Source of the DNA: Rudanella lutea DSM 19387
GTDB taxonomy: Bacteria > Bacteroidota > Bacteroidia > Cytophagales > Spirosomataceae
Reading direction: 5' to 3'
DNA length: 64,000 bases
Assembly: GCF_000383955.1 (NCBI RefSeq)
Contig: NZ_KB913013.1
Location: 3,615,694-3,679,693, forward strand
The notes beneath the pieces were generated by a model, which saw nothing but the letters and a program-made list of their open reading frames with translations, had not been told where the DNA came from and made no database searches. How positions within the stretch are numbered: position 1 is the stretch's first letter; each line of letters starts with the position of its first letter. The translations under genes were made by a program, and so were the position numbers. This document shows positions 6,049 through 48,345 of this stretch, piece after piece.

Positions 6049-8826
6049 ATGGATAACTATTCGTATATAGCCAACTCAGACGCAGCCTACGTTGACCAGT
6101 TGTACCAGGCGTACAAACAAGATCCTAATTCGGTTGACGCAAGCTGGCAGAAGTTCTTTGAAGGCTTTGATTTTTCGCTCACCTATGGCGAAAATGGCGG
6201 AAAAGCCGCCAATCGAAACAAGGAAACTACGCCGGTAGCTACCAACGGTCAGACCAAGACCCCCGTTGATGCCCGGCACAGTGAAAAAGAAGTATCGGTT
6301 GCCAGCCTGATCAAAGCCTACCGCTCCCGGGGGCACCTGCTGGCCCAGACAAACCCCATTCGGTCGCGCAAAGATCGCAACCCCCGGCTCGAACTCTCGG
6401 ACTACGCCCTCTCAGACGCAGACCTCGATACCGTATTCGAAGCAGGCAACCTGCTGGGCATTGGCCCCGCTACCCTGCGTGATATTATGGCCTCGCTGGA
6501 GAAAATCTACGCGGGCCGGATCGGCTTCGAGTACATGTACATCCGCGAGATCGACGTAAAAAACTGGCTGCGCAACAAAATTGAGAAAGAAGCGCTGGTG
6601 TTTGATCCGACTATTCAGGAGAAAACCCGGATTCTGGAAAAGCTCAACGAAGCCACTGTTTTCGAAAACTTCCTGCACACCAAATTTCTGGGTCAGAAAC
6701 GGTTTTCGCTCGAAGGAGGTGAAACCACTATTCCGGCCCTCGATGCCATTATCAACAAGGCGGCCGACATGGGCGTTGAGGAGGTAATGATCGGGATGGC
6801 GCACCGTGGCCGACTCAATGTGCTGGCTAACATCCTGGGTAAATCGTACGAAAGTATTTTCGACGGATTCGAAGGAAACGTGCCCAGCGGTATTCATGGC
6901 GATGGCGACGTGAAGTATCACCTCGGCTACGCCAGCCTGACCGAAACGCCCGCAGGTAAGCGCATTAACGTGAAACTGGCCCCCAACCCGTCGCACCTCG
7001 AAGCCGTAAACCCGGTAGTAGAAGGCTTCACGCGGGCGCAGGCCGACGAAGAATACAAAGGCGATTTCACCAAGATCATGCCGATCCTGATTCACGGCGA
7101 TGCTGCCGTAGCGGGTCAGGGGATTGTGTATGAAGTGACGCAAATGGCCAAACTACCCGGCTACCAAACCGGCGGTACGGTGCATTTTGTGATCAATAAC
7201 CAGGTGGGCTTTACCACCGACTTTGATGACGCCCGCTCGTCGATTTATTGCTCCGACGTAGCCAAAATCATCGACGCCCCGATTTTTCACGTCAACGGCG
7301 ACGATCCCGAAGCGGTGTTCTTCTGCGCTAAACTGGCTGTTGAGTTCCGCGAGATGTTCAAGCGCGACGTGTTTATCGACATGGTGTGCTACCGGCGGTA
7401 CGGCCACAATGAGTCGGACGAGCCGAAGTTTACGCAGCCGACCATGTACGCCGTGATCGACAAGCACGCCAACCCCCGCGACATCTACAACAAGCAGTTG
7501 GTAGAGCGGAGCGAGGTAGACGCGCAACTGGCGGCCAACATGGACGCCGAGTTCAAGAAATTGTTGCAGGAGCGGCTCGACCGCGTGAAGCAGAAAGCCG
7601 AGATTCCGTACAAGCCACTCCGGCTCGATCAGCAATGGGCCGAACTGCGGACGTCACAGCCCGAGGACTTCGATCAGTCGCCGGAAACGGGTGTCTCGCT
7701 CGAAACGCTCGAACGCGTAGGGCAGGCCCTGTACACGGTACCCGACAACTTCAAGCCGCTGAAGCAGATTGACAAACTCCTGCGCGACCGCAAGCAGATG
7801 CTGACCGAGTCGAAGCAGGTAAACTGGGGTACGGCCGAATTGCTCGCTTACGGCTCAATTTTGAGCGAAGGTAAAGTGGTTCGTTTGAGTGGGCAGGACG
7901 TACAGCGGGGCACGTTCTCGCACCGTCATGCTGTGCTGCACGACTCAGAAAACAACGGCCTCTACTACTCACTCGACCATATCGGGGGTGAGGGCACGGC
8001 CAAAATGCAGATTTACAACTCACTCTTGTCGGAGTATGGGGTACTGGGCTTCGAGTACGGGTACGCTATGGCGACTCCGCACGCGCTGGTGATCTGGGAG
8101 GCTCAGTTTGGTGACTTTGCCAACGGTGCCCAAACCATGATTGATCAGTTTATTGCGGCTGGTGAGTCAAAATGGGGTATTCAGAACGGCGTGGTGATGC
8201 TGTTGCCCCACGGCTACGAAGGGCAGGGTCCCGAGCACTCAAACGCCCGGCCCGAGCGTTACCTCCAACTCTCGGCTCAGTACAACATGGTGGTTTGTAA
8301 CGTAACTACACCCGCCAACCTGTTCCATATGTTGCGCCGTCAGCTGGCGTGGCCGTTCCGTAAGCCGCTGGTGGTGATGTCGCCAAAGTCATTGCTGCGC
8401 CATCCGCAGGTAATCTCACCCCTGGAAGACCTCACCAAAGGGCGGTTCCAGGAGGTACTGGGCGACCCGTACGCCGACCCGAAAAAGGTGAAGCGCGTGC
8501 TGCTCTGCACCGGCAAGATTTACTACGAATTGCTGGAGAAACAGCAGGCCGAAGGTCGTACCGACGTCGCCATTGTGCGGCTGGAGCAACTGCACCCGCT
8601 GCCGCAAAAGCAGATTGACGCGGTATTGGCTCAGTACAAGAAGGCCGAGCTGGTGTGGGTACAGGAAGAACCCCTCAACATGGGTTACTACACCTACCTG
8701 CTGCGCGAAATGCCTGAGGTGCGGTTACGCCCCGTATCGCGTCCGGCGGCTGCATCGCCTGCTACCGGCTTCGCCAAAAACCACACGCAGGAGCAAGCTG
8801 CGATCGTAGCAAAAGCATTTGAATAA
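6049..8826 (+). CDS. sucA: 2-oxoglutarate dehydrogenase E1 component
   Basis: Thiamine-diphosphate E1 subunit of the 2-oxoglutarate dehydrogenase complex in the TCA cycle. It decarboxylates 2-oxoglutarate and passes the succinyl group to the lipoyl arm of E2, encoded next. About 925 aa, normal for SucA. Recognisable features are the N-terminal Y-V-D-Q-L-Y-Q-A-Y helix, EVMIGMAHRGRLNVL, the HGDAAVAGQGIVYE motif, the ThDP-binding region ending in NNQVGFTT, and the C-terminal HGYEGQGPEHSNARPER. I start at the ATG at 6049 rather than the upstream TTG at 6019, because the protein then begins M-D-N-Y-S like relatives and the -7 box would overlap the TTG. Confidence 0.97.
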   Translation: MDNYSYIANSDAAYVDQLYQAYKQDPNSVDASWQKFFEGFDFSLTYGENGGKAANRNKETTPVATNGQTKTPVDARHSEKEVSVASLIKAYRSRGHLLAQTNPIRSRKDRNPRLELSDYALSDADLDTVFEAGNLLGIGPATLRDIMASLEKIYAGRIGFEYMYIREIDVKNWLRNKIEKEALVFDPTIQEKTRILEKLNEATVFENFLHTKFLGQKRFSLEGGETTIPALDAIINKAADMGVEEVMIGMAHRGRLNVLANILGKSYESIFDGFEGNVPSGIHGDGDVKYHLGYASLTETPAGKRINVKLAPNPSHLEAVNPVVEGFTRAQADEEYKGDFTKIMPILIHGDAAVAGQGIVYEVTQMAKLPGYQTGGTVHFVINNQVGFTTDFDDARSSIYCSDVAKIIDAPIFHVNGDDPEAVFFCAKLAVEFREMFKRDVFIDMVCYRRYGHNESDEPKFTQPTMYAVIDKHANPRDIYNKQLVERSEVDAQLAANMDAEFKKLLQERLDRVKQKAEIPYKPLRLDQQWAELRTSQPEDFDQSPETGVSLETLERVGQALYTVPDNFKPLKQIDKLLRDRKQMLTESKQVNWGTAELLAYGSILSEGKVVRLSGQDVQRGTFSHRHAVLHDSENNGLYYSLDHIGGEGTAKMQIYNSLLSEYGVLGFEYGYAMATPHALVIWEAQFGDFANGAQTMIDQFIAAGESKWGIQNGVVMLLPHGYEGQGPEHSNARPERYLQLSAQYNMVVCNVTTPANLFHMLRRQLAWPFRKPLVVMSPKSLLRHPQVISPLEDLTKGRFQEVLGDPYADPKKVKRVLLCTGKIYYELLEKQQAEGRTDVAIVRLEQLHPLPQKQIDAVLAQYKKAELVWVQEEPLNMGYYTYLLREMPEVRLRPVSRPAAASPATGFAKNHTQEQAAIVAKAFE

Positions 8827-8828
8827 GC

Positions 8829-8947
8829 AACCAACGAACAACGAACAGTGAACAACGAACAACTGACAACGACCGGATAAAGCTCCCTAAAAATTGCTTC
8901 ACCGCTCATTGTCAGTTGTTCGTTGTCAGTTGTTCACTGATAACTGA
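8829..8947. repeat. Class A word hairpin between sucA and sucB
   Basis: The left part (8829-8872) is made of repeated AACAACGAACA words. The right part (8906-8947) carries their reverse complements: 8855-8872 pairs with 8906-8923 at 17 of 18 positions, and an outer CAGTGAACA is also shared. The hairpin begins 2 bp after the sucA stop and ends 6 bp before the sucB ATG. No T-run follows it, so it is more likely an RNA processing, stability or translation-control element than a terminator. Confidence 0.75.
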
Positions 8948-8953
8948 AAAAAA

Positions 8954-10555
8954 ATGGCTGTTGAAATAAAAGTACCCGCAGTAGGCGAGTCGATCACCGA
9001 AGTAACGGTGGGCGAATGGTTGAAAAAAGAAGGTGATACGGTAAAGGTCGACGACGTGCTCTGTACGCTCGATTCAGACAAAGCGTCGTTTGAACTGCCG
9101 GCCGAAACCGAAGGCGTACTCCATATTCTGGCCCAGGCTGGCGACACCCTGCCGATTGGTGCTGTTATCTGTACCATTGAGCCCGTAGGCGCATCGGCTC
9201 CGGCCCCTGCACCGGCTCCCGAAGCGCCCAAGGCCGAGGCTCCTGCTCCTCAGCCTGTTGCGGCCCCGGCCCCCGAGCCCGCTACGCCAGCGCCGGCGGC
9301 AAGCGGTAGCCAGGTGATCGAAATGAAAGTACCAGCCGTAGGCGAGTCGATTACGGAGGTAACCATCGCATCGTGGTCGAAGAAAGACGGTGACGTGGTA
9401 GCGCTCGACGAGGTTCTCTGCGAACTGGAGTCTGACAAAGCTACGTTTGAGCTGCCCGCCGAAGCGGCCGGAACCCTCCGGATTGTGGCGCAGGCTGGCG
9501 AAACACTTCCGATTGGTGGCCTCATTGCCCGGATCGAAACTGGCGCGGCAGCTGCCCCGGCGGCTCCGGCTCCGAGTGCTCCCGCTGCTCAACCTGCGGC
9601 TGCTACCACCGCCGACGTTAATGGTCAAACGGGGTATGCCGCGCATCATGCCTCACCGGCTGCGGCCAAAATTCTGGCCGAAAAAGGGGTAGAAGCCACC
9701 GCCGTGACCGGTACCGGTGTGGGCGGGCGCATCACCAAAGAAGACGCCATGAATGCCCAGAAGGCACAGCCTGCCGCTCAACCGGCCGCTACAGCCCCCG
9801 CGCCCAAGCCAGCCGCACCGGCACCAGCTCCGGCTCCGGTAGCTGCGCCGGGTAGCCGCAACCAGCGTCGCGAAAAAATGACATCGCTGCGCCGGACCAT
9901 TGCCCGCCGGTTGGTGGCCGTGAAAAACGAAACGGCTATGCTGACAACCTTCAACGAGGTTGACATGAAGCCGATCATGGACATGCGCGGCAAGTACAAA
10001 GACAAGTTTAAGGAGAAACACGGGGTGGGCCTTGGGTTCATGTCGTTCTTCACAAAAGCGGTCTGCGTAGCCCTGAAAGAGTTCCCGGCCGTGAATGCCA
10101 TGATCGACGGTGATCAGATTGTATTCAACGACTTCTGCGATATTTCAATCGCGGTATCGTCGGAGCGGGGGTTGGTGGTTCCGGTGATTCGGAACGCTGA
10201 GCAAATGACGTTCCACGAGATCGAGAAAGAAATTGTGCGGTTAGCCGGTTTGGCCCGCGACAATAAACTGACCATCGAGCAGATGCAGGGTGGCACGTTC
10301 ACGATCACAAACGGGGGTATCTTTGGGTCGATGCTGTCGACACCGATTATCAATGCACCCCAGTCGGCTATTCTGGGTATGCACAACATTGTGGAACGTC
10401 CGGTTGTGCAGAACGGCGAAATCGTGGTGCGGCCGATCATGTACGTAGCTCTCAGCTACGATCACCGTATTATCGACGGGAAAGAGTCGGTGAGCTTCCT
10501 GGTACGGATCAAGCAACTGCTCGAAGATCCGACCCGCCTACTGCTCGACGTGTAA
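8954..10555 (+). CDS. sucB: Dihydrolipoyllysine succinyltransferase (E2 of 2-oxoglutarate dehydrogenase)
   Basis: A 533-aa E2 core subunit that accepts succinyl from SucA on a lipoyl lysine and transfers it to CoA. Domains: lipoyl 1 (about 1-78, lipoylated K43 in D-S-D-K-A-S), an Ala/Pro-rich linker, lipoyl 2 (about 120-197, K162 in E-S-D-K-A-T), a second linker, the E1/E3-binding domain (about 231-268, [17 protein letters not shown]), a third linker, and the catalytic domain from about 303 with the active-site motif SYDHRIIDG (H504, D508). Two tandem lipoyl domains are more than the single one of E. coli SucB but are common in Bacteroidota. It is co-directional with sucA across a 127-bp repeat-filled gap and is followed by its own terminator. 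Confidence 0.96.
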
Positions 10556-23801: not shown

Positions 23802-24761
23802 ATGCGCGAAGCAGCTTTTATCCGGCGCAACACCGAAAAGTGGCGCTCGTACGAAGAAAACCCAACCACCGACCCCGACGAGCTCACCGACCGGTACATT
23901 GAACTGACCGACGACCTTTCGTACGCGCGGACCTTCTACCCCGATTCCAACATTACCAAATACCTCAACAGCGTGGCCGGCCGCATGCACCGGGGTCTGA
24001 TGCAGAACAAACGCGATGATCAGAACCGGTTTGTCCAATTCTGGACGCACGAGTTGCCCATGTTGTTTCGGCAGTCGCACCGGCTGTTGCTGGTGTCGGC
24101 GGTGTTTTTTGGGCTGGCCTGCGCGGTGGGGTGGCTGTCGGCGGCCAATGACAGTACGTTTGTGCGCCTTATTCTGGGCGACGGCTACGTAAACATGACC
24201 CTCGAAAACATCAAAAAAGGTGACCCCCTGGGTGTTTATAGCCGCGAAGACGGGGCCAGTATGTTTTTGGCCATTACCGTGAACAACATCGGGGTGTCGC
24301 TGCGCACGTTTGTGGCGGGGGTGCTGGCATCGTTCGGCACCATCGTGATCCTGTTTTACAACGGTGTGATGCTGGGAGCCTTTCAGTATTTCTTTTACGA
24401 GCGGGGCCTGTTACTGGAGTCGGTACTGAAAATCTGGATTCACGGTACTCTCGAAATTTCGGCCATCGTCATTGCCGGTTGCGCGGGCCTGACCGTGGGC
24501 AACAGTATCCTGTTTCCGGGGACGTACTCCCGGCTCGAATCGTTTAAACGGGGGGCCAAACAAGGTCTGAAAATCGCTATTGGCCTGATTCCAATTTTCG
24601 TGGTGGCCGGTTTTCTCGAAAGTTACGTGACCCGGCTCACGCTGCCGCCTGTAATTAGTGCGGCTATTATTGCGGTGTCGGCCGGGTTCATTGGCTGGTA
24701 TTTTATCTGGTATCCAATTCAGTTAAACAACGAGCAAGGAACAACGAACAGTACTCACTAA
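23802..24761 (+). CDS. SpoIIM-family (DUF95) membrane protein
   Basis: A 319-aa protein: a soluble, charged N-terminal third (F-I-R-R-N-T-E-K-W, then R-T-F-Y-P-D-S-N-I-T-K-Y-L-N), followed by about six to seven helices starting near residue 98. The N-N-I-G-V-S-L-R-T-F-V-A-G-V-L and H-G-T-L-E-I-S-A-I-V-I-A-G-C-A-G lines are typical of the SpoIIM/DUF95 family. In Bacillus SpoIIM takes part in engulfment, but non-sporulating Bacteroidota carry it with DUF4129, DUF4350, MoxR and DUF58 genes, as here. It is first in the cluster. The last eight codons (E-Q-G-T-T-N-S-T-H end) are supplied by the left arm of a class A hairpin and are probably not part of the original protein. Confidence 0.85.
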   Translation: MREAAFIRRNTEKWRSYEENPTTDPDELTDRYIELTDDLSYARTFYPDSNITKYLNSVAGRMHRGLMQNKRDDQNRFVQFWTHELPMLFRQSHRLLLVSAVFFGLACAVGWLSAANDSTFVRLILGDGYVNMTLENIKKGDPLGVYSREDGASMFLAITVNNIGVSLRTFVAGVLASFGTIVILFYNGVMLGAFQYFFYERGLLLESVLKIWIHGTLEISAIVIAGCAGLTVGNSILFPGTYSRLESFKRGAKQGLKIAIGLIPIFVVAGFLESYVTRLTLPPVISAAIIAVSAGFIGWYFIWYPIQLNNEQGTTNSTH

Positions 24762-24799
24762 TGCAAAGCTCGCCTGTTCGTTGTTCCTTGCTCGTTGTT
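24726..24799. repeat. Class A word hairpin, 26-bp perfect arms
   Basis: 24726-24751 (starting AACAACGAGCAAGGAACAAC) and 24774-24799 are exact reverse complements, with a 22-nt loop. The left arm lies inside the 3' end of the SpoIIM gene and the loop contains its stop codon. The right arm ends 14 bp before the next ATG. Confidence 0.85.
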
Positions 24800-24813: not shown

Positions 24814-25656
24814 ATGATGCAGCTTTATCAGCAGCGCGATTTTGGCGCGAAAATCAACGCTACCTTTCGCTACCTCGTGCAGCATTTCCGCAGCCTGGGG
24901 CTGTCCCTGTTGTACATTGCGGGGCCGGTGGTGCTGGTGGCGGGTATAGCGAGTGGGCTGAGCGAATCGTCGGTGCGGGGTAACCAGTTTGGGCTGTTCA
25001 GCCGGGCGTCGCTGCTGAGTTTTGGGGCGTACCTGCTGGCGTTCTGGCTGGTGCCGATGGTCACCTACGGGCACATGAGTGTGTACGGGCGGGGCGAGGT
25101 GCCGGTGCTGGTCGGGGCGGTCTGGCGTGAAGTTCGCCGGGGGTTCGGGCGGGCCGTTGTAGCTATTGGTCTGTACGGGCTGGCCTATGGATTGGGGTCG
25201 GTGTTCTTTTTCGTGCCGGGTCTTTACTTCGGCGTCACGCTCTCGCTCATGCTGCCGATTGTGTTTCTGGAAAACAGTGGGCCGTTCGATGCGCTGGGCC
25301 GGAGTATGACCCTGATTCAGAACAACTGGTGGTCAACGCTGGGGCTGCTGGTGGTGATGGGGCTCGTGTACGTATCTCTGTTGAGCCTGATTGTGGTGCC
25401 TACCTTTCTTTGGGAAATTGTACGCAACGTGTTTCAGCTGCCTGCCCTGCCTCCGCTGGCCCTCGCGTTTCTGGGCGCTTTGCTGGTGCTGGCCCTGCTG
25501 TTGTTTTCGGTGGTGGTGGTGCTGGCTGTGGGCTTTCAGTACCTGAATCTGGTTGAAAAACGGGAGCATATCGGCCTGATTACCCGCATCGACTCCATCG
25601 GTACGGCCGCACCCGAAACAACTCCATCACACACAGACGATGAATGGTATGCGTAA
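24814..25656 (+). CDS. Polytopic membrane protein of the SpoIIM-MoxR cluster
   Basis: A 280-aa protein with about six strongly hydrophobic segments (near 34-54, 71-89, 112-145, 175-205, 215-245) and a soluble tail. The P-M-V-T-Y-G and L-F-L-E-N-S-G-P-F-D-A-L-G-R-S lines resemble the membrane domains associated with glycerophosphodiester phosphodiesterases and the DUF4013/DUF975 type, but I cannot assign a family firmly. The ATG at 24814 is preferred to a TTG at 24781 that lies within the repeat arm. Its end overlaps the DUF4129 gene by 17 bp, so the two are surely co-transcribed. It probably works in the same membrane assembly as the SpoIIM protein. Confidence 0.78.
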   Translation: MMQLYQQRDFGAKINATFRYLVQHFRSLGLSLLYIAGPVVLVAGIASGLSESSVRGNQFGLFSRASLLSFGAYLLAFWLVPMVTYGHMSVYGRGEVPVLVGAVWREVRRGFGRAVVAIGLYGLAYGLGSVFFFVPGLYFGVTLSLMLPIVFLENSGPFDALGRSMTLIQNNWWSTLGLLVVMGLVYVSLLSLIVVPTFLWEIVRNVFQLPALPPLALAFLGALLVLALLLFSVVVVLAVGFQYLNLVEKREHIGLITRIDSIGTAAPETTPSHTDDEWYA

Positions 25657-32040: not shown

Positions 32041-32130
32041 TTCAGTGCTGAATTTTAGATGTTGGACACCAGACGATAGACTTTTTTACAGAATGGTAGT
32101 ACGTCTAACGTCTGAATGTCCAGTACTGAA
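32041..32130. repeat. Class F word hairpin (GGACATTCAGACGTTAGAC-like)
   Basis: Left words TTCAGTGCTG (32041-32050) and GGACACCAGACGATAGAC (about 32064-32081) recur as reverse complements in GTCTAACGTCTGAATGTCC and AGTACTGAA (32103-32130). It starts 3 bp after the DUF58 stop and ends 24 bp before the GNAT ATG. Confidence 0.7.
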
Positions 32131-34484: not shown

Positions 34485-35402
34485 CTACGAAAAGTCAGAA
34501 TTCTGCACGTCGTTCTTCGCATTCTCGGCAAGCTCTTTTAACCGTGCGCGTTCAATAGAGCCCGATACCCAGATACTTACCTCGTACAAAATAGCCAGGG
34601 GCAATGACACCAGCACCTGACTGTAAATATCCGGCGAAGGGGTAATCAGACCCGAAATAATCAGGATTACGATGAACGCGTGTTTCCGGTACGCCCGCAT
34701 AAACGAAGGAGTAAGTACTCCTACTTTCGAGAGCACGAAGGCCACTACCGGCATCTGGAACATAATGGCGCAACCCACGCAAAGCGTAATCAGGGTACCA
34801 ATGTACGACGTGATATCGTACTGGTTCTGAATGGATTCGTCGAGCTGGTAATTGGCTAGGAAGTTGATGGCTAAGGGCGATACAATGTAATACCCGAAGA
34901 AAAGACCCATCAAAAATAGCATCGACACATAGAACGTAGCTCCGCGGGCGGCTCGCCGTTCGCTGGTGCGCAGACCCGGTTTAATAAATCGCCACAACTC
35001 CCAGAACGCGTACGGAAACGCGAAGCACAACCCGATGATTACCGCTGATGTAATACTCATGGTAAACTGATCGGCCATGCCCAGGGCCTGTAATTTAAAA
35101 TCCAGCTTCTTTACACACAGGTCGGCATAGCCCGTAAAATCGGCCAGCTTACACATTTGCTGGTAGGTCCAGAAGTCCGGGCGGCTGGGTCCTAAAATAA
35201 CGACCCGGTAAATGTCTTTGATGAAAATAAACGCAACCAGACCAAATACCAGAATGGCCGCGAGGGCCCGGATAATGTGCCAGCGGAGCTCTTCCAGATG
35301 TTCCAGAAACGACATCTCGGTCCCATCTTCATGGGGTTCGTCCTGATGTTCCTGGGTTGGCTCGTCGTATGGGTACTCGTTGAAATCTTGGTCGAGTGGC
35401 AT
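34485..35402 (-). CDS. tatC: Sec-independent (twin-arginine) translocase subunit TatC
   Basis: A 305-aa integral membrane protein with six helices that binds twin-arginine signal peptides of folded exported proteins. Recognisable: M-S-F-L-E-H-L-E-E-L-R-W-H-I-I-R-A at about 30-46, F-A-F-P-Y-A-F-W-E-L-W-R-F-I-K-P-G-L-R near the third helix with the conserved F-x-x-P region, and an E-R-R-A-A-R-G loop. An acidic N-terminal extension of about 28 residues precedes the core. The ATG at 35402 is chosen; further upstream the frame is class C repeat sequence. tatA is not in the window. Confidence 0.95.
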   Translation of the reverse strand: MPLDQDFNEYPYDEPTQEHQDEPHEDGTEMSFLEHLEELRWHIIRALAAILVFGLVAFIFIKDIYRVVILGPSRPDFWTYQQMCKLADFTGYADLCVKKLDFKLQALGMADQFTMSITSAVIIGLCFAFPYAFWELWRFIKPGLRTSERRAARGATFYVSMLFLMGLFFGYYIVSPLAINFLANYQLDESIQNQYDITSYIGTLITLCVGCAIMFQMPVVAFVLSKVGVLTPSFMRAYRKHAFIVILIISGLITPSPDIYSQVLVSLPLAILYEVSIWVSGSIERARLKELAENAKNDVQNSDFS

Positions 35403-35407
35403 TTTGT

Positions 35408-35490
35408 AAAGAGTGAAAGGTGAAAGAGTGAAAGAGTGATTGGGGTGAGCGTTCACCGCTCTTTCACTCTTTCACTCTTTCACTCTTTAA
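35408..35490. repeat. Class C word hairpin (GAAAGAGTGAAAGAG) between glyA and tatC
   Basis: Left arm about 35408-35439, right arm about 35459-35490. The two are reverse complements over about 30 positions, with one base missing. On the minus strand it fills the spacer from the glyA stop (35493) to 6 bp before the tatC start (35402). Confidence 0.8.
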
Positions 35491-35492
35491 GT

Positions 35493-36800
35493 TTAAGCAT
35501 ACAACGGAAACGCCTTCATCCATTCGTTGATTTCCTCTTTAATGGATGAAAGGCGGCTGTCGTTGTCGTGGTTCATCAGCACTTCGTCGATATATACGAC
35601 GATCTGCTCCATATCCGATTCTTTCATGCCCCGGGTAGTCATGGCGGCCGTTCCGACCCGCATACCTGAGGTTACCATCGGCGACTTATCGTCGAACGGA
35701 ACCATGTTCTTGTTGATCGTGATATCGGCCTTGATGAGGGAATTTTCGGCCAGCTTACCGGTCAGGTTAGTGGCGTTGCCCCCTTTGGTACGGAGGTCGA
35801 TGAGCATCAGGTGGTTGTCGGTGCCGCCCGAAATAATCGAGTAACCCCGGTCTACAAACGCTCGGGCCATGGCCTGCGCGTTGGCCTTTACCTGCTGGGT
35901 GTATTCGGCGTACTCATCGCTCAAAGCTTCGCCAAACGCAACGGCTTTGGCCGCAATAATGTGCTCGAGCGGGCCGCCCTGCGTACCGGGGAACACCCCC
36001 GAATCGAGAAGCGACGACATCAGGCGCAGCTCACCTTTGGGGGTCTTGATGCCAAACGGATTTTCGAAGTCATTGCGCATCATGATCAGACCCCCGCGTG
36101 GGCCCCGGAGGGTCTTGTGGGTAGTAGTGGTAACAATGTGGCAATGATCGAAGGGATCGTTGAGGAGTTTCTTGGCAATCAAACCCGATGGGTGCGAAAT
36201 ATCAGCCAGCAAAAGGGCGCCAATCTGATCGGCAATGGCCCGGAGCCGGGCGTAGTCCCAATCGCGGCTGTAAGCAGAGGCCCCGCAGATCATCAGTTTG
36301 GGGCGCTCGCGCATGGCCGTTTCTTCTACTTTGTCGTAGTTGATAACACCGGTTTCGCGCTCTACGCCGTAGAACGTCGGCCGGAAGTACTTACCCGAAA
36401 TGTTCACGGGTGATCCGTGTGTCAGGTGGCCACCGTGCGAGAGGTCGAAGCCCAAGATGGTGTCACCGGGTTGCAGGCAGGCCAGAAAAACGGCCGTGTT
36501 GGCGTTGGCACCTGAGTGGGGTTGAACGTTGGCCCAGGTAGCGCCGAAGAGTTCTTTTACCCGGTCGATGGCCAGTTGTTCGATCTGGTCAACTACTTCA
36601 CAGCCACCGTAGTAGCGTTTGCCCGGCAAGCCCTCGGCGTATTTGTTGGTAAGCACGCTCCCGGCGGCTTCCATGACGGCGGGCGAAACGAAGTTTTCGG
36701 AAGCAATCAGCTCAATACCCGATTCTTGCCGGTGCTGTTCTTTGGCAATGAGGTCAAATACCTGCGCATCGCGGGTGCTAGCGGTCGTTGCAGTGATCAT
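35493..36800 (-). CDS. glyA: Serine hydroxymethyltransferase
   Basis: A 435-aa PLP enzyme interconverting serine and glycine with transfer of a one-carbon unit to tetrahydrofolate. Conserved lines: [12 protein letters not shown] at 28-39, [15 protein letters not shown] at 52-66, [10 protein letters not shown], the D200 and H203 pair in A-D-I-S-H, and the PLP lysine K229 in [12 protein letters not shown]. The ATG at 36800 gives M-I-T-A-T-T; the longer frame adds an improbable leader. It is transcribed toward tatC. Confidence 0.96.
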
Positions 36801-43089: not shown

Positions 43090-44175
43090 TTACTTCTCTT
43101 TCCCCGCCAGCTGCCCGCAGGCGGCATCAATATCTTTACCCCGGCTCCGGCGAATATTGACCGTTACGCCCTTTGCGTCGAGAAAACCGGCAAACTTGTC
43201 GAGCGTTTGTGGATCGGTATTGGTGAAATTGGCCTCCGCAATTGGGTTGTACTCAATGATGTTAATCTTGGCCGGCACCCGCTTCGTAAACTCCCACAAC
43301 TCTTTAGCGTCTTGCAGGGTATCGTTGAAGTTGTAAAAAACGATGTATTCAAACGTGACGCGCGTACCCGTTTTGCGGTAGAAGTAATTGAGCGATTCGG
43401 CCAGGTTCTTGAGCGAGTTGCTCTCGTTGATGGGCATAATCTGGTTCCGCTTTACGTCGTTGGCCGCGTGTAACGACAGGGCCAGGTTAAACTTCACCTG
43501 ATCGTCGCCCAGTTGTTTGATCATCTTCGCAATACCAGCCGTCGATACCGTAATCCGCTTCGCCGACATACCCAGCCCATCGGGCGAGGTTATCCGATCG
43601 ACGGATTCGAGCACGTTTTTGTAGTTCAGCAAAGGCTCGCCCATGCCCATGTACACAATGTTGGTAAGCGGAGCCTCGTAGTTGGCCTTAGCCTGCCGGT
43701 CAATGGCCACCACCTGATCGTAAATCTCGGCTGCGTCGAGGTTTCGTTTACGGTCCATGTAACCCGTTGCGCAAAACTTGCACGTGAGCGAGCACCCGAC
43801 CTGACTCGACACACAGGCGGTCATGCGCGGGCCGCCCGTTGCGTCGGTGCGCTCACGGTCCTGAAGGGTGTCGTCGTTGCGCAAAGCCGGAATCAGCACT
43901 CCTTCCACCAGGTTGCCGTCGAACAACCGAAACGATGATTTGATGGTGCCGTCGTTACTGCGTTGTTCGGTAGCAACTGACAAAGGCCGGATTTCAAATG
44001 CCATTTCGAGCTTCTCGCGCAAAGGCACCGACAGGTTGCTCATCTGCCCAAACGAGTGCGCCGACTTTTTCCAGAGCCATTCGTGTACCTGTTTGGCCCG
44101 AAAGCCCTGCTCGCCGTTTTGCACAAACCAGTCTTTGATTTGCGTAGGGGTGAGTTTGCGGATGTCTTGTTTCAT
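43090..44175 (-). CDS. rlmN: Dual-specificity RNA methyltransferase RlmN
   Basis: A 361-aa radical-SAM enzyme that methylates C2 of A2503 in 23S rRNA and of A37 in some tRNAs. The [4Fe-4S] cluster cysteines are C128, C132 and C135 (C-S-L-T-C-K-F-C). The two methyl-transfer cysteines are C121, seven residues before the cluster, and C353 near the C-terminus (D-I-D-A-A-C-G-Q). N-I-V-Y-M-G-M-G-E-P-L-L-N-Y and S-L-H-A-A-N-D are also diagnostic. It is last in a minus-strand run after cvpA- and yqeY-like genes, and a class C hairpin covers the space before its start. Confidence 0.97.
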   Translation of the reverse strand: MKQDIRKLTPTQIKDWFVQNGEQGFRAKQVHEWLWKKSAHSFGQMSNLSVPLREKLEMAFEIRPLSVATEQRSNDGTIKSSFRLFDGNLVEGVLIPALRNDDTLQDRERTDATGGPRMTACVSSQVGCSLTCKFCATGYMDRKRNLDAAEIYDQVVAIDRQAKANYEAPLTNIVYMGMGEPLLNYKNVLESVDRITSPDGLGMSAKRITVSTAGIAKMIKQLGDDQVKFNLALSLHAANDVKRNQIMPINESNSLKNLAESLNYFYRKTGTRVTFEYIVFYNFNDTLQDAKELWEFTKRVPAKINIIEYNPIAEANFTNTDPQTLDKFAGFLDAKGVTVNIRRSRGKDIDAACGQLAGKEK

Positions 44176-44179
44176 GAAG

Positions 44180-44252
44180 AAAGAGTGAGAGAGTGAAAGA
44201 GCGAATAAGGGACTGTTCTTGAGTCAAACGTTTACTCTTTCACTCTTTCACT
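44180..44252. repeat. Class C word hairpin between the CvpA-like gene and rlmN
   Basis: GAGAGAGTGAAAGAGCGAA (left, within 44180-44208) pairs imperfectly with TTTACTCTTTCACTCTTTCA (44230-44249). On the minus strand it begins inside the last codons of the CvpA-like gene (its C-terminus I-S-E-R-V-K-E is written in repeat words) and ends 5 bp before the rlmN ATG. Confidence 0.7.
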
Positions 44253-44762
44253 AATTTTTTTTCCCGCTTCGAGGCCTTTAGGAACCCACACGGCGGCTAC
44301 GTCCATCACTTTGGGGGCTACCGGCCGAATAAGGGGATATAAATACGTGTCTTTGGTTTGTTGGGGGGGCATTTGCACGCCCATATAGCTGAACAACCAG
44401 AGCATCACACTAATTCCAAACACCCACGTAAAGATGCCAACAGCGGCTCCGGCAAACCGATCGAAACTGCCGAGCAACGTTTGCCGGAGCGATTGGCGCA
44501 GCGAGTAGCCCATCCGGTTGACCATAAAGACAACCGGGAAGAAGATAATGGAGAAGCCGAGCCACGGCAAAAATTTGCGGGCCAGCTCGCGGCTGATATA
44601 CGGGGCAAGCAGGTCGATGCCGAAGCTCAGAAACTTAAGCCCGACCACCATTGCCACCACAAAGGCAATTACGGCCACCACCTCGACCAGCAGCCCCTTG
44701 CGGTACCCGTTCCAGGCACCCCAAATCAGTGGAATCAGAATCAGAATGTCGAGGGTCTTCAT
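44232..44762 (-). CDS. CvpA-family membrane protein
   Basis: A 176-aa protein with four hydrophobic helices (about 4-20, 27-47, 64-84, 103-125). It opens D-I-L-I-L-I-P-L-I-W-G-A-W-N-G-Y-R-K-G-L-L, the standard CvpA start with a conserved G-x-x-x-G-x-x-x-G pattern, followed by a conserved F-D-R-F-A-G-A-A-V-G-I loop. CvpA is tied to colicin V export and envelope stress in E. coli; its biochemical role is unknown. The start at 44762 fits the family, and the longer frame would reach into the class A repeat. The C-terminal residues are encoded by repeat sequence. Confidence 0.88.
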   Translation of the reverse strand: MKTLDILILIPLIWGAWNGYRKGLLVEVVAVIAFVVAMVVGLKFLSFGIDLLAPYISRELARKFLPWLGFSIIFFPVVFMVNRMGYSLRQSLRQTLLGSFDRFAGAAVGIFTWVFGISVMLWLFSYMGVQMPPQQTKDTYLYPLIRPVAPKVMDVAAVWVPKGLEAGKKISERVKE

Positions 44763-44764
44763 AG

Positions 44765-44842
44765 CAATGAACAATAAACAACGAACAGTGCATAAGGGCT
44801 GTTCGTTGTTTATTGTTCGTTGTTAGCTGTTCGTTGTTTATT
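44765..44842. repeat. Class A word hairpin between the YqeY-like and CvpA-like genes
   Basis: 44765-44788 (CAATGAACAATAAACAACG...) pairs with 44799-44822 at 23 of 24 positions, with a second copy of the right word at 44826-44842 (CTGTTCGTTGTTTATTG). It fills the interval from the YqeY-like stop, which lies inside the word, to 3 bp before the CvpA-like ATG. Confidence 0.82.
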
Positions 44843-45287
44843 GCAGTAGTGACTTCACCATAGCCGAAATCGCCTTTCCTTCGGCTATACCGGCCAGTTC
44901 TTTGGTGGCTACCCCCATTACTTTACCCATGTCTGAGGGGGCCGAGGCACCCACGCGGCCGATAATGTCCTGAAGCCTGGCCCGGAGTTCGTCTTCGGTC
45001 AGTTGCTTGGGCAGGTACTTTTCGATCACCGCGATTTCGGCTTCTTCGGTGGCGAGCAAATCCGCGCGGCCTTGTTGCCGGAAAATATCCGCCGAGTCTT
45101 TGCGCTGCTTCACGGCTTTGGTCAGCAGCTTCAGCTCGTCTTCGGGTTTCAGGCCGTCGCCCGCGCCCTCTTTGGTTTCTTCGAGCAGAATAAGGGATTT
45201 AATAGCGCGGAGAGCCCGCAGTTTATCGGCTTCTTTGGCCAGCATGGCCTGCTTGATATCGGCGTCGATCTGTTGTTTCAGTGACAT
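44838..45287 (-). CDS. GatB/YqeY family protein
   Basis: A 149-aa helical protein of the YqeY family, which shares its domain with the tail of the GatB amidotransferase subunit and the tRNA-binding side of that complex. The hallmark is L-K-Q-Q-I-D-A-D-I-K-Q-A-M-L-A-K-E at the start, then R-A-L-R-A-I-K-S-L-I-L, E-I-A-V-I-E-K-Y-L-P-K-Q-L-T-E-D-E-L and G-K-V-M-G-V-A near the C-terminus. The physiological role is uncertain, with a link to tRNA or translation presumed from the domain. The start at 45287 removes a repeat-encoded leader. Confidence 0.93.
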   Translation of the reverse strand: MSLKQQIDADIKQAMLAKEADKLRALRAIKSLILLEETKEGAGDGLKPEDELKLLTKAVKQRKDSADIFRQQGRADLLATEEAEIAVIEKYLPKQLTEDELRARLQDIIGRVGASAPSDMGKVMGVATKELAGIAEGKAISAMVKSLLQ

Positions 45288-45297
45288 GAATGAAAAA

Positions 45298-45357
45298 CGA
45301 AAGAGTGAAAGAGCGAAAGAGTGATAAAAGTCGCTCATTTGCTCTTTCACTCTTTCG
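45298..45357. repeat. Class C word hairpin, 17-bp perfect arms
   Basis: CGAAAGAGTGAAAGAGC (45298-45314) and GCTCTTTCACTCTTTCG (45341-45357) are exact reverse complements. It stands 10 bp before the YqeY-like ATG in the divergent region shared with the DinB gene. Confidence 0.82.
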
Positions 45358-45379
45358 CCATTGATTTTGGCAAAGTTAC

Positions 45380-47573: not shown

Positions 47574-48278
47574 ATGCCCGTCACGATCCGAACCTCCCAG
47601 AACGTTGTGCTTGAGTACGAGCCCGCCAGCCTTGGCGAGCGGTTTGTGGCTACCCTGATCGATTACCTCATTTTTCTGGGCTGGGTGATTCTGACGGCCT
47701 ACATAGCCTCGCAGGGCGGTCGGATGCTGGGGAACTACTACTGGTTTTTTGTGGTGCTGGCTCCTATTCTGTTCTACGACCTACTCACCGAATGGCTGCT
47801 CAACGGGCAGAGCCTGGGTAAACTGGCCATGAATATCCGGGTGGTTAAGCTCGATGGGTCGCGGCCGGGCCTGGGCGATTACCTGCTTCGCTGGCTGTTT
47901 CGACTGGTGGATACACGCGTGCTCAATGGCGTGGTGGCGATGGTGGCCGTGGCCGCCAACGACCGGGGGCAGCGGCTGGGCGATGTGGCCGCCGGCACAA
48001 CGGTGGTCAAAATTAAACCGGCTATCACGCTCGACGATGTGCTCCATACGCTGCTGCCCGACGACTACCGCGTCCAATTCCCCGACGTCATTGTCCTCAC
48101 CGATCGGGATCTCAATAGTATCCGTGACACCCTCCGGACAGGCCACCCGGTGCTGCTGGACCGGGCCGCTACCCGCGTTAAATCCGTGACCGGGGTTTCG
48201 TCGCCAATGCCTGCCGAGTTATTTTTGCAGACCGTCGTGGCCGACCATCAGTTTATGACCACGCGAGGAGTTCAATAA
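47574..48278 (+). CDS. RDD-family membrane protein
   Basis: A 234-aa protein with the RDD signature R-F-V-A-T-L-I-D-Y near residue 22 (R, then D, D), about three to four helices (about 25-45, 55-75, a third near 105-130) and a cytoplasmic tail. V-V-K-L-D-G-S-R-P-G-L-G-D and A-G-T-T-V-V-K-I are typical. In many Bacteroidota an RDD gene belongs to the SpoIIM-DUF4129-MoxR-DUF58 cluster; here it is 15 kb away from that cluster, alone behind its own promoter box. The M-P-V-T-I-R-T-S-Q-N-V-V-L-E-Y start is the RDD partner type found with SpoIIM. Confidence 0.9.
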   Translation: MPVTIRTSQNVVLEYEPASLGERFVATLIDYLIFLGWVILTAYIASQGGRMLGNYYWFFVVLAPILFYDLLTEWLLNGQSLGKLAMNIRVVKLDGSRPGLGDYLLRWLFRLVDTRVLNGVVAMVAVAANDRGQRLGDVAAGTTVVKIKPAITLDDVLHTLLPDDYRVQFPDVIVLTDRDLNSIRDTLRTGHPVLLDRAATRVKSVTGVSSPMPAELFLQTVVADHQFMTTRGVQ

Positions 48279-48345
48279 TGTAGAATGTACCATGCGTAAC
48301 GATAGCTGGTCATTATACATTACTCCTTATTCATTGTACATTCAG
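48275..48345. repeat. Class B-like words between the RDD and M20 genes
   Basis: GAATGTACCATG (48283-48294) pairs with CATTGTACATTC (48332-48343) at 11 of 12 positions; ATAATGTAG and CATTATACATTACTCC are further variants of the class B word. The region starts inside the RDD stop codon and ends 2 bp before the next ATG. Confidence 0.5.

Follow-up and report, generated by a model that had tools for sequence, protein, structure and literature searches.

Many spacers between genes in Rudanella and its relatives carry long inverted repeats composed of degenerate 7- or 8-nt words. We consider it slightly more probable than otherwise that these are stop-anchored RNA hairpins, lying between cistrons and at gene 3' ends in a large-genome clade of Spirosomaceae, that insulate and protect the upstream message, and that the fold matters whereas the word does not. 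The observations behind this reading are the excess of hairpins over shuffled spacers, their location, their nearness to stop codons, the scarcity of promoter motifs in the spacers that they occupy flush, their retention with changed sequence, a shift of word dialect, arms of mixed words and loops not shared between loci. The window analyzed is a 64,000-nt stretch of Rudanella lutea DSM 19387 DNA on the 6.33-Mb contig of a four-contig, 6.55-Mb assembly (W; G000), in which at least eight spacers had been predicted to consist of a repeated word followed by its reverse complement.

For each window repeat, the score of the best self-complementary alignment was compared with those of 1000 dinucleotide shuffles of that segment. 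All eight beat at least 998 of their shuffles (the observed score was equalled by 0/1000 for six repeats, 2/1000 for 32041-32130 and 1/1000 for 48275-48345) and are thus real inverted repeats beyond chance. Folding z-scores were -5.2 to -11.4 in seven repeats and -2.0 at 48275, and when 120-nt segments were stepped through the window a score of 39 or more was reached by 1/802 deep-coding segments versus 27/263 other segments. No Rfam family reached its gathering threshold within the window. The original prediction was upheld in that the spacers have a layout in common and not their words, and in that all eight inverted repeats are present, although word structure is weak at 32041-32130. The predicted lack of a T-tract applied to word hairpins, which have no terminator T run, and the longest T run near the 3' end was 1-3 nt in seven of the window hairpins and 5 nt at 45298.

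The sucA-sucB spacer (8824..8956, + strand; stop codon 8824-8826, start codon 8954-8956; Pfam flanks OxoGdeHyase_C and 2-oxoacid_dh) holds a heptamer hairpin of ACAACGA/ACAGTGA words with arms at 8843-8883 and 8896-8935. Its inverted repeat (IR) score of 65 was matched by 0/1000 shuffles, its MFE is -44.5 versus -20.6 for shuffled sequence, and a single TAACTGA unit is found at 8941-8947. An ACAACGA hairpin at 24726..24799 (+) has arms at 24726-24751 and 24774-24799 that are complementary at 26/26 positions; the left arm lies within the 3' end of a SpoIIM-family ORF (23802-24761) and the right arm before the start, at 24814, of a membrane-protein gene (Pfam GPDPase_memb, below cut-off). Between a DUF58 gene and a GNAT gene, 32041..32130 (+) belongs to a family of dispersed palindromes whose ends are of the TCAGTACTGG type, and its word structure is weak. 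A GAAAGAGT octamer hairpin at 35407..35489 (-; arms 35489-35459 and 35436-35407) separates glyA (SHMT, 35493-36800, -) from tatC (34485-35402, -), and another at 44177..44259 (-; arms 44259-44235 and 44201-44177) separates cvpA (44232-44762, -) from rlmN (43090-44175, -), its first arm lying within the cvpA C-terminus. The ACAACGA heptamer hairpin at 44760..44840 (-; arms 44825-44799 and 44788-44762) stands between yqeY (44838-45287, -) and cvpA, and a GAAAGAG(T/C) octamer hairpin lies upstream of yqeY at 45289..45366 (-). The last of the eight, a weak AATGTA/ACATT repeat at 48274..48345 (+) flanked by RDD and M20 peptidase genes, has an outer arm that starts at the stop codon, and as 48275-48345 it is the weakest of the window repeats.

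Two details of the predicted placement had to be revised. The spacer at 45298-45357, upstream of yqeY, is divergent by our own gene calls, hence not all eight lie in stop-to-start spacers. Moreover, the fold was said to begin at or inside the upstream stop codon, whereas at 24726 and 44180 the outer arm is inside the upstream ORF. Comparison with the sister species shows that the final codons of the SpoIIM-family gene and of cvpA have given way to word arrays (24726-24761 and 44235-44259), and thus the folds there begin ahead of the stop. The resulting C-terminal tails are species-specific (...NNEQGTTNSTH in the SpoIIM-family protein, ...ISERVKE in CvpA), the SpoIIM tail being ...QLNNEQGTTNSTH in the window versus ...KLNSGSEQ in the sister species. 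If the reading given at the outset is right, annotators would also have to reckon with arrays of words written over stop codons and C-terminal ends.

To ask how general the hairpins are, genes were called in W and in the sister-species genome of R. paleaurantiibacter (P; G001, which from its contig numbers and coordinates appears to be identical to assembly G003) by a simple caller that used coding scores and chose its own starts, and spacers of 30-400 nt were scored for their best IR. The thresholds (IR≥39; periodicity p≤0.02) were set by us, IR counts include ordinary terminators, and the scans begin at the stop codon and so miss hairpins intruding into ORFs. In 800 kb of W, 81/274 co-directional, 46/66 convergent and 6/80 divergent spacers had IR≥39, with only 0.4, 0.0 and 0.4 in the respective shuffles; in 760 kb of P the counts were 76/266, 51/69 and 6/80 (shuffles 0.6, 0.0 and 0.2). 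Earlier 400-kb samples of both genomes gave a similar picture. The prediction of a genome-wide class withstood this shuffled-spacer control, both genomes lying far above chance.

Short-loop hairpins with T runs (T run ≥4, loop ≤8) were set aside as ordinary terminators. By junction type, W has 35 co-directional, 10 convergent and 2 divergent word hairpins; for P the numbers are 26, 5 and 2. Unlike intrinsic terminators, which combine a GC-rich stem and a short loop with a U-tract, co-directional word hairpins have a mean T run of 2.4 (versus 5.4) and a median loop of 27 nt (versus 4), a contrast partly built into the definition of the terminator class. Their placement also differs: the medians are 5 nt past the stop and 13 nt before the next start, versus 21 and 94 nt for terminators.

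Among all non-terminator co-directional hairpins the distance to the stop (d5) was less than that to the start (d3) in 110/134, one tie being left out, the median d5 being 8 nt and the median d3 24 nt. A d5 of 15 nt or less was found in 86/135, where uniform placement predicts 71.1; elements inserted into short spacers would in part show such stop-nearness. Hairpins at convergent ends are also near stops (median 15 nt). The original emphasis on the ribosome-binding region is thus not borne out, and we rejected anchoring to the start codon or ribosome-binding site as the main rule, since the stop is the closer in 110/134. The downstream start is nonetheless often near. In 62/135 non-terminator co-directional hairpins, hereafter called flush, the base of the stem lies no more than 25 nt from the stop and 30 nt from the start. 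Such geometry would suit a translational bridge, in which the stem joins stop and start and passes terminating ribosomes to the next start across a long spacer, and coupling of this sort has been suggested for cyanobacterial STRR hairpins (PMC2670836). However, hairpins are also close to stops at convergent ends, where there is no next start, and the distance to the start is looser than that to the stop; we regard a bridge as highly improbable.

Sequence within the flush spacers was then considered. We take TAnnTTTG to be the Bacteroidota -7 promoter motif. It occurs in hairpin-free co-directional spacers at 1.43 per kb in the sense and 0.13 per kb in the antisense direction, and is an insensitive marker, being present in 57/180 divergent-side sequences. 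Spacers with a flush hairpin carried the motif in 3/64 cases; the frequency was 63/276 in spacers of 60-250 nt that lack hairpins (p=2.7e-4), 16/73 where the hairpin is not flush and 4/85 in spacers shorter than 60 nt. Given this scarcity, flush-hairpin spacers resemble intra-operon spacers. This bears on the proposal that the hairpins are transcription terminators that work without a U-tract. Their density is highest at convergent junctions (46/66 in W), they occupy the same junction types as ordinary terminators, and such a role is plausible at convergent ends; in co-directional pairs a promoter inside the upstream gene could serve the downstream one. Yet flush hairpins, with the motif in 3/64, leave scant room for a downstream promoter and nevertheless occupy the sucA-sucB and glyA-tatC junctions. 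Together with the 13-nt approach to the start and the short T runs and long loops given above, this makes termination quite improbable as the general role.

Three other features of the spacers were tried and rejected. An A-rich leader before the start was evident in the first 19 flush word hairpins (A 0.41 versus 0.25) and weak in a larger set of 64 flush hairpins (0.30 versus 0.25). Extra stop codons in all frames amounted to 2.24 frames versus 1.97 in shuffles, a difference too small to be of use. The 5' arm has more A than T in 27/36 flush word hairpins of the two Rudanella genomes; the sucA-sucB hairpins run opposite (T > A in 12/16), and hence there is no general arm-orientation rule.

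Periodicity was significant in 37% of 216 hairpins with arms of at least 18 nt, versus 2% expected. Among 80 word hairpins from 1.56 Mb of W plus P, where only periods 6-9 were tried, the period was 7 in 62, 8 in 16 and another value in 2; a wider trial of periods 5-10 gave 7 in 24, 8 in 10, 9 in 2 and 10 in 2. Hairpin arms are AT-rich (median GC 0.36). The word families differ in their junctions: purine-only AGG hairpins are mostly convergent (convergent to co-directional 7:1 in W and 8:3 in P), whereas the heptamer and octamer families are mostly co-directional (5:32 and 3:24). By eye, several AGG-hairpin loops hold ACGCTTGCG or its complement. A REP-like family, GCTGACGC...CCTTCGACAGGCTCAGGCTGAC, was seen in the sampled DNA at convergent junctions only (5/5 in W, 3/3 in P). 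The pattern GAACARYGAACARYGA had 116 matches in W, 43 in G003 and 20 in G039, and zero in three genomes of other genera.

The two arms of a hairpin match more closely than a common word requires. In 61 ungapped word hairpins the arms matched at 0.876 of positions, versus 0.760 with word order permuted in one arm, and the observed value was the higher in 56/61; hence the arms correspond word by word. Point compensation was also counted. Word hairpins had 14 double changes, of which 7 were Watson-Crick versus 3.8 expected, and sliding the partners by 2 gave 7/533. Compensation was clear in other hairpins, with 11 Watson-Crick double changes versus 1.0 expected (slid control 2/668), and was seen in terminators, 8 versus 0.8, although their slid control gave 7/249. 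As proof of selection on word hairpins we rejected point compensation, which did not rise clearly above the slid control. Changes in word hairpins seem to come in steps larger than single points. Stems can arise and be made complementary again by template switching during replication, as described in PMC8794818.

The predicted exchange of words at a retained hairpin was borne out by comparisons both with the sister species and among genera. W and P have a median protein identity of 97.6%, and their SucB proteins are 97% identical. Of 517 syntenic junctions, 395 could be classified and 122 were dropped because the spacer, including stop and start codons, fell outside 30-500 nt. Hairpins were called different when 9-mer sharing was <0.15 with identity <0.70, again thresholds of our own; 'same' takes in some swaps of related words (578934) and 'different' takes in related octamers (451095) and palindromes without words. 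With that reading of the classes, co-directional junctions were same in 46, different in 13, W only in 13, P only in 12 and without hairpins in 169, and the 13 different cases compare with 3.1 expected under independent occupancy (p=1.8e-7). Convergent junctions gave 30, 9, 3, 6 and 15 (5.5 different expected, p=0.013) and divergent junctions 4, 1, 2, 1 and 71 (p=0.079). Of the eight window positions, P matches W in its word only at yqeY-cvpA and is empty at the DUF58 spacer; the other six hold another word or palindrome. These six include related octamers at glyA-tatC and upstream of yqeY, where GAATGAGT/GAATTAGC words occupy the position, and scores below 39 at SpoIIM and cvpA-rlmN.

The glyA-tatC and yqeY-cvpA junctions were compared in 21 genomes of five genera, sets that are phylogenetically dependent. 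At glyA-tatC a hairpin of IR≥39 was present in 20/21 genomes; 12/20 carry variants of one GANNGAGYG octamer and 8 do not, and 42/190 hairpin pairs have a 10-mer in common between arms. At yqeY-cvpA the threshold was reached in 15/20 measurable genomes (one 704-nt spacer was dropped) and 18 were above all 20 shuffles, with GANNGAGYG-octamer variants in 4/15 hairpins and a common arm 10-mer in 10/105 pairs. For sucA-sucB we took the 30 genomes with the best SucB matches, which include Spirosoma, Fibrella/Fibrivirga and Larkinella (spacers identical to named loci): 16 reached 39, 25 were above all 20 shuffles, and the 16 hairpins had a common arm 10-mer in 9/120 pairs. Given related octamers at some junctions and changed words at others, both drift by descent and replacement have been at work, and some of the retained hairpins reflect no more than common descent of a drifting word.

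A second sucA-sucB set comprised 28 spacers, four of them from genomes of the first set, and one more genome had no sucA match. Among the 24 new spacers one (G009, genus g8) reached 39, and G047 and G018 also exceeded all 20 shuffles. The sucA-sucB hairpin was absent in Runella and most other sampled genera of the family, in which many spacers are short. This suggests that the hairpin was gained in, or lost outside, one clade. In 80-kb samples of ten genera, inverted repeats were found mainly in g4, g8 and g16; the word test was passed by four hairpins, two in g8 and two in g16, and by none of the 11 hairpins in the 80 kb of g4 (Spirosoma-type). One record, NZ_JAPQNS010000003.1, is titled Flavobacterium sp. 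SUN052 and encodes a SucB 79% identical to that of the window, next to an ACAGTGA spacer like those of Rudanella; the record may carry a wrong name or be a mixture.

The principal alternative is that the palindromes are selfish or purely mutational, with REP/MITE-like elements, slippage and template switching filling tolerated spacers to no function, and with rarity in divergent spacers reflecting purifying selection for promoters. Several observations favor it. Hairpins of W at 305307 and 492099 (800-kb frame) and in the DUF58 spacer are missing from the sister species, the 32041..32130 element cleanly so, its spacer there being about 30 nt. Conversely, a TCAGTACTGG element in P is flanked by the 10-bp direct repeat ATCTTGACAA, present in W as the single copy ATCTTGACGA. 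Matches to PF01797 (RAYT/IS200-type transposase), a REP-type transposase family, number four in W and two in G003, and were found in 5/6 genomes; REP/BIME elements are mobilized by a linked RAYT. At W 236575 / P 175540 (400-kb frames) the inserted palindrome of P, with its 10-bp direct repeat, has TCAGTACTGGACATT ends; a further copy sits inside an AATG-word hairpin, and an imprecise direct repeat was seen at another TCAGTACTGG-family insertion. A MITE would show terminal inverted repeats together with a target-site duplication; such flanking repeats were seen for the TCAGTACTGG family and not at octamer or ACAACGA hairpins.

Loops distinguish the families. The W loop pairs that scored above all 50 shuffles were 5/10 in the CTTCGACAGGCTC REP-like family and 3/3 in the TCAGTACTGG family, both made up of dispersed copies, and 5/45 in the AATG-word family, whose ends were judged by eye and whose partly shared loops speak for the selfish alternative. 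The remaining families gave 0/15 (octamer), 1/28 (ACARYGA), 1/45 (CTGAAAA) and 2/21 (AGG). An early permissive clustering had joined octamer hairpins, and ACAACGA hairpins, via their loops; the later loop-only test disagreed. As octamer and ACARYGA loops are unlike between loci, hairpins of these two families did not spread as copies of a single element, and a single mobile element behind all words was rejected, loops being unshared in the octamer, ACARYGA and CTGAAAA families. These loops, and the hairpins retained at the same junctions with changed sequences, argue against the selfish alternative, which we consider rather unlikely. A neutral hot spot plus neutral arm copying could also have produced such a pattern.

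Replacement of words is most readily followed for the octamer. Whole-genome hits to GAAAGAGYGAAAGAGYGA versus GAATKAGYGAATKAGYGA were 103 versus 20 in W, 9 versus 39 in G003, 5 versus 29 in G039 and 2 versus 9 in G055, and reversed-pattern controls gave 0 in all eight genomes searched. Counted as loci, the ratio GAAAGAGY:GAATGAGY is at least 57:13 in W (from the 100/103 GAAAGAG hits listed), and, counted by hand, 6:24 in G003 and 4:19 in G039. The W dialect differs from those of G003 (p=8.7e-9) and G039 (p=5.1e-8), which are alike, and hence GAATGAGY is probably ancestral, the switch to GAAAGAGY having occurred in W. At the syntenic junctions 451095, 460980 and 578934, W has GAAAGAG opposite units of different type in P; at 669882 the P units opposite GAAAGAG are degenerate, by eye, and 251884 is alike in both. 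Two W loci (L276 and L277) have both octamer words within one hairpin, as in-place replacement would leave. A bolder interpretation is that a genome-wide concerted process, possibly a dedicated reader/writer, holds dispersed hairpins of a genome to similar words, giving every lineage a dialect of its own; W would have exchanged GAATGAGY for GAAAGAGY (at least 57 loci) after its split from P, with mixed-word hairpins as intermediates. We consider such a process quite unlikely.

Taken as a whole, the stop position, rarity in divergent spacers, lack of a T-tract, promoter-poor flush cases and persistence of hairpins whose sequence is rewritten suggest that they act at the RNA level, downstream of translation. 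In the reading that we favor, insulation plus 3' protection by word hairpins, which we hold with moderate confidence, the hairpin would be transcribed together with the upstream gene and fold just past its stop codon. There it would hinder post-termination ribosomes from sliding into the next ORF and stop 3'-to-5' exonucleases, so that the upstream message would be insulated and protected, both within operons and at convergent gene ends. Copy-number slippage and drift would alter the words inside an arm, template switching during replication would copy one arm onto the other, and occasionally a palindromic element would insert or a whole hairpin be swapped. Transcription through the hairpin, the effects on ribosomes and exonucleases and template switching as the copying step are what we infer from the pattern. 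The two proposals made originally, mRNA protection or decoupling and the footprint of a process that writes palindromes, are compatible with each other, and both fit.

If this reading is true, Rudanella offers a natural experiment, a single genus that preserves an RNA structure and rewrites its sequence, separating selection on the fold from selection on the sequence. The origin of long near-perfect stems by slippage plus template switching would become testable with close genomes. Bacteroidota make little use of Shine-Dalgarno sequences, and intercistronic hairpins might be a standard operon part in such a phylum.

The original prediction knew of no established name for these elements, but there are precedents: STRR (PMC2670836), RTS (PMC7518266) and REPs within 15 nt of stops (PMC12306157). 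STRR of cyanobacteria are described as tandemly repeated units, in most cases 7 bp long, that lie between co-directional genes such as hupS and hupL and are able to fold as hairpins, with transcript stability or translation coupling as suggested roles (PMC2670836). The Rudanella spacers similarly contain tandem degenerate intergenic units of about 7 bp (period 7 in 62/80). They differ from STRR as described there in belonging to another phylum, in that their repeats are found as palindromes of period 7 or 8, and in that words are replaced both at junctions and genome-wide. A Nostoc spacer repeat, ttgtcagttgtcagttgtca, given in PMC2408588 resembles the TTGTCAGTTGTTC arm of the window by eye only. 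TAACTGA heptamers form intergenic arrays of direct repeats in Beggiatoaceae, cyanobacteria and some Bacteroidetes, and indels between close Cyanothece strains are mostly 7-nt steps (PMC4679880). Intergenic heptamer arrays are thus common to both systems. However, the TAACTGA arrays are direct repeats of one fixed heptamer without a predicted fold of their own, the Beggiatoa copies lying mostly just upstream of starts (PMC4679880), whereas Rudanella arrays are palindromic and nearer stops.

REP/BIME sequences are also palindromes by gene 3' ends, intercistronic or terminal, and a REP no more than 15 nt from a stop is said to cause ribosome stalling (PMC12306157); Rudanella hairpins are likewise rare in divergent spacers. 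Unlike REP/BIME, which repeat a conserved palindromic consensus of 20-40 nt in many copies, they have no consensus common to loci, and consist of tandem words in AT-rich arms with loops of about 27 nt that are replaced rather than conserved. Accordingly, most pairs of hairpins at orthologous junctions are without a common 10-mer (9/120, 42/190 and 10/105 have one). RTS are stable mRNA structures just past stops, proposed to be translational insulators, and are described as lowering re-initiation in a synthetic E. coli operon and as depleted, not enriched, after mid-operon genes (PMC7518266). Rudanella folds share the position just downstream of the stop (median d5 8 nt), and the -120..+30 region around the next start has a mean MFE of -47.3 in 19 flush cases versus -35.3 in 181 without a hairpin, whereas RTS, as set out in that source, are defined by folding bias, without repeat structure. 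The component parts are therefore of known kinds, namely STRR, REP, RTS and template switching. What is new, relative to the open-access literature searched, is their combination, the retention of hairpins at individual junctions with replacement of their sequence, and the dialect shift.
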